Assembly (NCBI RefSeq): GCF_002127225.1
Contig: NZ_NFUR01000001.1
Location: 1,055,592 to 1,119,591 of the forward strand
Length of the DNA stretch: 64,000 nt
Origin: Sphingomonas sp. IBVSS2
GTDB taxonomy: Bacteria; Pseudomonadota; Alphaproteobacteria; Sphingomonadales; Sphingomonadaceae
Direction: 5' to 3'
The notes under the pieces are model-generated. The model ran no database searches, was not told where the DNA came from, and saw nothing but the letters and a program-made list of their open reading frames with translations. The position numbers and the translations under genes were made by a program. This document shows positions 43,287 through 50,004 of the stretch, piece after piece (the first letter of the stretch is position 1; each line of letters opens with the position of its first letter).

Positions 43287-45638
<2,352 letters not shown>

Positions 45639-48609: not shown

Positions 48610-48642
48610 AAAAGCCGCGGCGAGGCGCATGCACGCCTCGCC
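48610..48642 (-). terminator. Hairpin terminator of the SDR gene
   Basis: GGCGAGGCG (48619-48627) and CGCCTCGCC (48634-48642) form a perfect nine-bp stem with a six-base loop. On the minus strand it is followed after five bases by TTTT (48613-48610). It lies 19 bp past the SDR stop. Confidence 0.65.
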
Positions 48643-48660
48643 GTGTCCCATGCGCAACGC

Positions 48661-49494
48661 TCAGTCGGCCCGGCGCGACTGGCTCATCCGCCACATCAGT
48701 GCATCCTTCCAGCGATCGGGCAGCCAATGGGCGAGGAACAGGAAGACCTTGGCCCCGCCGCCCGTGCCGTAGCGGATGCGCGGGCGGCGCGCGGCGGCGG
48801 CCCTGGCGATGGCGTTCGCCACCACTTCGGGCGGGGAGGCGAAGCTGCCGCTTTCGGCGCCGCTCAGCACCGCGGCATGCCGGAGCGCCCAGGGCGCATA
48901 GGCACTGCTGCCCGAGCGCTCGACCAGGCTCTGGTGCGCGATGCCGCCCCATTCGGTGCGGATCGCACCGGGCTCGATCACTACCACGCGGATGCCGAAG
49001 GGCCTGAGCTCCATGCGCAGGCAATCGCTGAAGCCCTCCACCGCGAACTTGGTCGCATGGTACCAGCCGCCGAACGGCTCGCCGAACTTGCCGCCGATCG
49101 ACGTGACGTTGACGATCGTGCCCGATCGCTGCGCGCGCATCAGCGGGGTGGCGAGCTGGCAGAGCCGGGCAAGGCCGAAGACGTTGACTTCCATCTGGCG
49201 GCGGGCCTCTTCCATCGGCACGTCCTCGATCGCGCCATAGCTGCCATAGCCGGCATTGTTGACGAGCAGGTCGAGCCGGCCGGCGGCGGCGCGGATCTTC
49301 TCCATGGCGGCGACGATCGAGGCATCGTCGGTCAGGTCGAGGTCGATCAGCTCGGCGCCGAGGCGCTCGAGCGGCGCCATGCGATCGAGGCGGCGGGCGG
49401 CGGCGAAGACCTTGTAGCCGTCCTTCAACAGCCGCTTGACGGTGGCTTCGCCGATCCCCGCGGAGGCGCCGGTGACGAGGGCGGTTTTCTGCAT
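48661..49494 (-). CDS. Short-chain dehydrogenase/reductase
   Basis: The product is 277 residues. It is a classical SDR with TGASAGIG (residues 8-15), NNAGYGSYG, the catalytic Ser in NVTSIGGK and the YHATK tyrosine/lysine. The long C-terminal part, rich in Arg and Trp (FLAHWLPDRWKDALMWRMS), suggests association with the membrane surface or a bulky substrate. It is divergent from a MerR-type gene, and its promoter (49526-49556) has MerR geometry, so it is very likely the regulator's target. The pair is inserted between miaB and phoH. Confidence 0.9.
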   Translation of the reverse strand: MQKTALVTGASAGIGEATVKRLLKDGYKVFAAARRLDRMAPLERLGAELIDLDLTDDASIVAAMEKIRAAAGRLDLLVNNAGYGSYGAIEDVPMEEARRQMEVNVFGLARLCQLATPLMRAQRSGTIVNVTSIGGKFGEPFGGWYHATKFAVEGFSDCLRMELRPFGIRVVVIEPGAIRTEWGGIAHQSLVERSGSSAYAPWALRHAAVLSGAESGSFASPPEVVANAIARAAAARRPRIRYGTGGGAKVFLFLAHWLPDRWKDALMWRMSQSRRAD

Positions 49495-49525
49495 TTCTGG
49501 CTCCGGTTGCGATGTGGAGCCTCGT

Positions 49526-49556
49526 CATATAAGTATGGACCATAGTCCATGGTCAA
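49526..49556 (-). promoter_or_regulatory. MerR-type promoter of the SDR gene, 19-bp spacer with dyad
   Basis: On the minus strand, TTGACC (49556-49551) and TATATG (49531-49526) are 19 bp apart. That over-long spacer is typical of MerR-activated promoters. The spacer holds the perfect dyad ATGGAC-TATG-GTCCAT (49550-49535). A second overlapping dyad, GACCAT/ATGGTC, is also present. The divergent MerR gene starts 14 bp beyond the -35 element. Confidence 0.75.
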
Positions 49557-49569
49557 GAGATGAAATCGC

Positions 49570-50004
49570 GTGCTGATCTCCGAATTCGCCCGGCGCGCCG
49601 GCATGAGCACCGACACGGTGCGCTTCTACGTCCGCAAAGGGCTGCTCGCACCCGCGACGGGCAGGAAGGGCGGCTCCAACCCCTATCAGATCTTCACCGA
49701 GGAGCATCTGGACGTGGCGCGGATCATCCGGATGGCGCAGAATCTCGGTTTCTCGCTGCGCGAGATCGCGGCGCTGGCGGCGGAATATCATGATGGGGCG
49801 ATAACCGCCGAGCGCAGCCTGGAGCTGATGCGGATGCAGCTCGCGCGGCTGGAGGAGAAGGCGGCGCAGGTGAACGCGATGGTCGATTATGCCCGCGCCA
49901 AGGTGGCCTGGCTGGAGACGGGGCAGAAGGGTGCCGAGCCGTTGTTCGGGGAATATGAAGGCTGCTGGGCGGAGCCGGCGACCGTGAAGGCGAGCGCGGC
50001 CTAG
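49570..50004 (+). CDS. MerR-family transcriptional regulator
   Basis: The product is 144 residues from a GTG at 49570. The MerR winged helix is at residues 1-70 (LISEFARRAGMSTDTVRFYVRKGLL), followed by a long coiled coil (LELMRMQLARLEEKAAQVNAMVDYARAKVAWLE). There is no metal-binding cysteine pair; one Cys lies in YEGCWAEP near the end. It probably senses an organic or redox signal and twists the long-spacer SDR promoter into an active form. Its stop overlaps the miaB stop by four bases on opposite strands (CTAG). Confidence 0.88.
   Translation: MLISEFARRAGMSTDTVRFYVRKGLLAPATGRKGGSNPYQIFTEEHLDVARIIRMAQNLGFSLREIAALAAEYHDGAITAERSLELMRMQLARLEEKAAQVNAMVDYARAKVAWLETGQKGAEPLFGEYEGCWAEPATVKASAA

Follow-up and report, generated by a model that had tools for sequence, protein, structure and literature searches.

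A gene for a MerR-type regulator and a gene for a short-chain reductase (SDR) stand back to back in Sphingomonas sp. IBVSS2, and it is probable (roughly 0.7) that they form a divergent switch by which a single carbonyl reductase gene is induced, with binding, activation, inducer and substrate as its putative elements. The pair lies within the stretch of 64,000 nucleotides that was analysed (the window). By analogy with the MerR family, a dimer of the regulator would occupy the dyad ATGGAC-N4-GTCCAT between the -35 and -10 elements of the SDR promoter, whose 19-bp spacer would be too long for RNA polymerase; upon a signal MerR would distort the DNA, again as expected of this family, and the promoter would be switched on. 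The output would be a short-chain reductase, probably from a single-gene transcript, and its most likely job would be to reduce a reactive carbonyl, whether aldehyde, ketone, quinone or enone, which is either the signal itself or a companion of the signal. As a MerR switch this one is well formed and ordinary in kind, and it belongs to an uncharacterised subfamily; its least ordinary parts are an inverted repeat in the leader and the way in which one operator serves several reductase families. The features of the locus are as follows.

48610–48643, minus strand: G+C-rich hairpin with an 11-bp stem, then TTTT, 3' of the SDR gene; probable intrinsic terminator (predicted, hairpin search)
48661–49494, minus strand: SDR gene, 277 aa, NCBIfam PRK06182 subfamily, with TGASAGIG, NNAG and S132-Y145-K149 (ORF list, NCBIfam, motifs)
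49499–49521, minus strand: leader inverted repeat GGCTCC-N11-GGAGCC just after the -10 element, its right arm holding the Shine-Dalgarno GGAG (repeat search, comparison)
49526–49531, minus strand: -10 element of the SDR promoter, TATATG, 19 bp from the -35 element (sequence; TATA at the same distance in 19/23 loci)
49535–49550, no strand assigned: predicted MerR-type operator dyad ATGGAC-N4-GTCCAT, loop TATG (sequence, dyad count, conservation)
49551–49556, minus strand: -35 element of the SDR promoter, TTGACC (sequence; TTGAC in 23/23 loci)
49570–50004, plus strand: merR gene, 144 aa, GTG start, divergent to the SDR gene (ORF list, Pfam)
49963–49965, plus strand: codon of Cys132, the only cysteine of MerR (sequence)

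Promoter geometry and gene neighbourhood

The two genes are separated by a gap of 75 bp which, on the minus strand, contains TTGACC-ATGGACTATGGTCCATACT-TATATG. The coordinates and letters given in an earlier note on this DNA, that is, TTGACC and TATATG 19 bp apart with a perfect dyad between them, were all confirmed on this strand. That note also placed the dyad at the centre of the spacer, which is not the case: its axis lies 8 bp from the -35 and 11 bp from the -10 element. The off-centre position fits MerR-type sites, since an offset of 8 bp from the -35 element is the figure given for MerR-type 22-bp sites, as against 7 bp for the CueR type, in the available part of PMC5045206. Like the promoters of mercury MerR and CueR, the SDR promoter has its dyad inside a 19–20-bp spacer, an arrangement given for MerR-family promoters in an excerpt of PMC9909328; it differs from them in its half-site, TGGAC/GTCCA.

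The -10 element is weak, agreeing with TATAAT at 4/6 positions. A standard promoter scan with 16–18-bp spacers gave no match here, which is what a MerR-type promoter would lead one to expect. The exact dyad occurs once in 64 kb; with up to two mismatches the window holds three matches where 1.8 are expected, which is chance level. The combination of TTGAC, a 16–21-bp spacer containing a 6-bp dyad, and a -10-like hexamer is found at a single site in the window (with spacers of 19 and 21 bp), and 100 first-order Markov sequences of 64 kb gave three hits. An overlapping dyad, GACCAT-N5-ATGGTC, was considered and set aside: over 18 distinct operators its axis averages 4.06 of 6 pairs against 4.94, still above all other axes. 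The plus strand carries TATAAG at 49528–49533, overlapping the SDR -10 element; this could be the -10 of merR, in which case both genes would share one -10 region.

In the window the pair is flanked by miaB and phoH, and the same placement is found at loci L010–L014. In genome G004 the pair adjoins phoH, with miaB about 31 kb away. In nine of 14 same-genus relatives lacking the pair, no more than 1.2 kb separates phoH from miaB; in the other five, phoH did not appear in the stretch examined. The stop codons of merR and miaB overlap tail to tail in the window (50001–50004), whereas about 0.4–1.8 kb separates these two genes at L010–L014. The interval from miaB to phoH appears to be a minor place of gene gain. 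All five named relatives that were obtained with the MerR protein belong to Sphingomonas. The gene katG, for a catalase-peroxidase (43287–45494, minus strand), is located downstream of phoH-ybeY-corC.

Because a terminator-like hairpin follows the SDR gene, it is probably expressed as a single gene. The hairpin (48643–48610) was not among the output of a stricter terminator scan. Similar 3' hairpins followed by TTT or TTTT were read by eye at L010–L013 and were not evident at L014 and L022 (five of seven, the window included).

Conservation of the operator and exchange of reductase partners

Operator and cysteine counts are based upon 23 loci with a related MerR, the near-identical L031 being retained. 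Loci occupying the same contig place (L004, L005, L015, L019–L022, L033, L034, L054, L056 and L061) and those with other MerR types (L002, L003 and L030) were left out. TTGAC is present within 150 bp upstream at all 23, and TATA follows exactly 19 bp past the -35 element at 19; the exceptions are L028 (TATC), L057 (TATA at 20 bp), and L018 and L029 (no clear -10). Eighteen distinct operators are represented. All of them have the same Watson-Crick pairs at 7/20 and at 10/17 of the dyad, pair 9/18 is always paired with one G-C to A-T swap, pair 8/19 is paired in 17, and pair 11/16 in 14 with two C-G to G-C swaps. Across the seven carriers of the SDR pair, 24/29 operator positions are invariant as against 5/42 flanking positions, a gap-free count which understates the flanks. 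Comparison of the intergenic region among carriers, a check which the earlier note had proposed, finds both the promoter geometry and the dyad kept, and this conservation is the strongest support for the predicted operator being real.

No second copy of the 29-base operator was found in the 4.29-Mb genome with up to three mismatches, nor of a looser pattern with up to two, though a more diverged second operator is possible. With one operator in the genome at this stringency, the single-target circuit suggested previously is likely. Among 346 genomes of the order, a 29-base pattern (up to two mismatches) was matched in three, every match adjoining such a MerR. The genome of the window has a further MerR-type gene (L002, G000:C7:31600-34977), which has cysteines at 112 and 120 and adjoins a gene for a MauE-domain protein; its divergent promoter contains the palindrome CCGTAC-N4-GTACGG, which we presume to resemble the mer operator.

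The regulator is uncommon. Homologs at E <= 1e-20 occur in 7/151 genomes of the genus, 4/397 of the family and 2/385 of the class, and profile A1 found them in 2/349 genomes of the phylum and in 1/39 and 2/149 of two other families; the own genome is counted and the samples partly overlap. Twelve of 72,556 plasmid records matched at E <= 1e-10, eight of which were inspected; when the plasmids were searched again, with the MerR of L026 as query, ten records matched, none new, and a search of viral contigs gave no match. A close MerR (at least 70%) and a close SDR (at least 83%) occur in the same 4/151 Sphingomonas genomes (G000, G004, G078 and G104). In G141, which has the fifth SDR match of the genus (52%), no MerR of this type reached the threshold, and the remaining MerR matches (G106, G119 and G150; 46–53%) have partners of other kinds. 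PRK06182-like genes were found in eight plasmid records, three of which were inspected; the one on a Rhizobium lentis plasmid has an annotated TetR regulator, not a MerR, as its neighbour.

The SDR of the window scores 384.5 with the PRK06182 model (NF004826, cut-off 305). The SDRs of L018, L014, L006 and L023 and the Rhizobium lentis gene also exceed this cut-off, while that of L029 gave no match at the limit used. Classical SDRs are recognised by TGxxxGxG, NNAG and a Ser-Tyr-Lys triad, here at 8–15, 79–82 and S132, Y145 and K149, and these motifs are retained in 9/9 SDRs compared. An Arg after the second strand is associated with a preference for NADPH in SDRs; its presence suggests that this enzyme prefers NADPH.

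Similar operators are found with more distant MerRs beside other reductases, that is, extended SDRs and aldo/keto reductases. Partner families were assigned by Pfam at eight loci besides the window and by annotation or sequence clustering at the rest. In a MerR tree of 25 rows the classical-SDR partners correspond to a clade of seven (support 95/97), the aldo/keto reductase partners to a clade of five (97/98), and the extended-SDR partners to a clade of seven which is not fully supported (92/88) and includes L007, with a different SDR. The MerRs of L018 and L029 fall outside these clades, and their SDR partners cluster with that of the window. The subclades thus appear largely to follow reductase type, in a tree whose long branches leave deep placements unsure. 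Other neighbours also occur: L028 adjoins insertion sequences, L057 a short frame which by eye looks membrane-bound and unlike a reductase, and L030, whose MerR is more remote and whose operator differs, an FMN oxidoreductase.

The regulator, its cysteine and the signal

The regulator has the N-terminal winged helix-turn-helix of the MerR family, with the Pfam domains MerR_1 (56.2 bits, cut-off 21.6), MerR (37.2, cut-off 28.2) and MerR-DNA-bind (42.9, cut-off 25.4), and reached none of the NCBIfam cut-offs. A model built from a six-row alignment (pLDDT 80, pTM 0.60) finds its best fold matches among MerR-family structures including CueR, HiNmlR and CadR, with Z of 10–12. Helical models may commonly give Z values of less than about 13; it is on Pfam that the family assignment rests. 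The C-terminal part of the model consists of a long helix (80–116), a loop, a short helix (126–129) and a low-confidence tail, and Cys132 sits past both helices.

The earlier note had stated that this protein lacks metal-binding cysteines; there is indeed no metal-site pair, but the lone Cys132 was overlooked, as were the leader repeat and the terminator-like hairpin. A cysteine is present at 131–136 in 18/23 MerRs, and as the final residue in four of the aldo/keto type. The MerRs of L007, L028, L029 and L055 have none, and in L057 the last is at 112; it is therefore not the sensor of all members. A thiol sensor at the C-terminus would fit most of them, and we infer that Cys132 is the best candidate sensor residue of the window protein.

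SoxR, also of the MerR family, is a fold match (Z 9.7); the protein is not a SoxR, scoring 33.1 with TIGR01950 against 116.9 and having one cysteine rather than the four-cysteine [2Fe-2S] motif. A four-cysteine MerR-type gene (L003) lies elsewhere in the same genome. The nearest known systems also include NmlR/AdhR of H. influenzae, Neisseria and B. subtilis, in which a short MerR-family regulator likewise controls a dehydrogenase gene and, according to the available part of PMC4776306, the response to carbonyls or formaldehyde depends on a cysteine. HiNmlR is a fold match with Z of 10–11. Unlike these proteins, the window MerR has no cysteine at the place of the conserved Cys54/Cys52, its lone cysteine being residue 132, and its predicted target is an SDR where theirs is AdhC; with 41.9 against a cut-off of 175 for NF041849 it is not a member of NmlR. 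Searches of the literature found no description of this MerR/SDR pair or its operator among the matches listed.

The earlier note's suggestion of a detoxifying SDR and of an organic or redox signal is favoured by the partners at related loci, most of which are SDRs or aldo/keto reductases. Less probably, though still to be reckoned with, MerR would respond to an organic ligand that is not electrophilic, or to a metabolite, and the SDR would be a dehydrogenase of catabolism or biosynthesis. Some related MerRs lack the cysteine, the PRK06182 model names no substrate, and known MerR proteins also sense drugs (PMC9909328, in excerpt); the modelled C-terminal part is, however, too short to accommodate a large ligand domain like that of BmrR, and the reductases next to related MerRs come from several families. 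We think it very improbable that MerR only represses, or that the pair is a decayed remnant: the rarity of the regulator in the genus might suggest so, but the frames are open, the SDR motifs are kept in every protein compared and the operator is strongly conserved. That MerR answers a metal, as do CueR, ZntR and mercury MerR, is scarcely credible. CueR is, it is true, among the best matches both by sequence and by fold, and the offset of the operator agrees with the figure for MerR (PMC5045206, in part), but the single Cys132 does not make the cysteine pair of the metal-sensor C-terminal loop, scores are far under the curated cut-offs for CueR, ZntR, MerR and CadR, and the flanking genes are miaB and phoH with no metal transporter. 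The preferred reading is that of a switch for a carbonyl reductase; weighing against it are the weak -10 element, the loci that depart from the common geometry or lack the cysteine, the neighbour of L057, the Rhizobium lentis gene beside a TetR regulator and the SDR of G141.

An inverted repeat in the leader

A perfect repeat of at least 5 bp is found at the same place in the leader of 14/22 loci (13/20 distinct leaders; L057 left out). It is missing from the five aldo/keto loci and from L018, L028 and L029 among the 22, and accompanies the close classical-SDR and the extended-SDR clades. Base shuffling, repeated 2000 times, gave such a repeat at 1.4 loci on average and at 6 at most, a contrast which overstates the case as the loci are related and the criterion was set after the pattern had been seen. 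The window has 25 ORFs of at least 200 aa with a Shine-Dalgarno-like motif; a comparable repeat occurs in two, the SDR included.

In the 13 distinct leaders selected for the repeat, the core begins 5 or 6 bases past the -10 element and the loop measures 7, 9, 10 or 11. The first core pair is C-G in 11 and T-A in two; the one beyond the core is G-C in six, T-A in four, and unpaired or G-T in three. Compensatory changes are thus seen at two pairs. The variation of the loop from 7 to 11 argues against a rigid DNA site for a dimer. A transcript with the usual start, 7 bp below the -10 element, would lack one or two left-arm bases, which would lie upstream of +1; this argues against a full RNA hairpin.

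RNA folding of the window leader from two alternative starts gave -7.1 kcal/mol (z -1.45) and -11.1 kcal/mol (z -2.51), and two other leaders gave z of -1.22 (L025) and -2.20 (L017); the folded stretches of L014, L008 and L007 excluded the left arm and carry no information. These energies do not clearly separate the repeat, because the repeat-less leader of L009 folds about as well (-13.3, z -2.01). It is possible that the repeat forms a 5'-terminal mRNA hairpin which masks the ribosome site.

A bolder reading, less likely than not, is of an undescribed MerR subfamily, usually carrying a single cysteine close to the C-terminus, which would serve as a sensor module that is transferable and can be combined with one reductase or another. 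Control would then have two layers, the MerR promoter and an mRNA hairpin by which the Shine-Dalgarno sequence is masked. Should the leader hairpin be real, a MerR promoter would gain a translational layer, which was not found described among the matches listed. The locus offers a compact promoter with an operator defined by comparison, together with a single candidate sensor residue, and gives reason to consider carbonyl stress as the signal.
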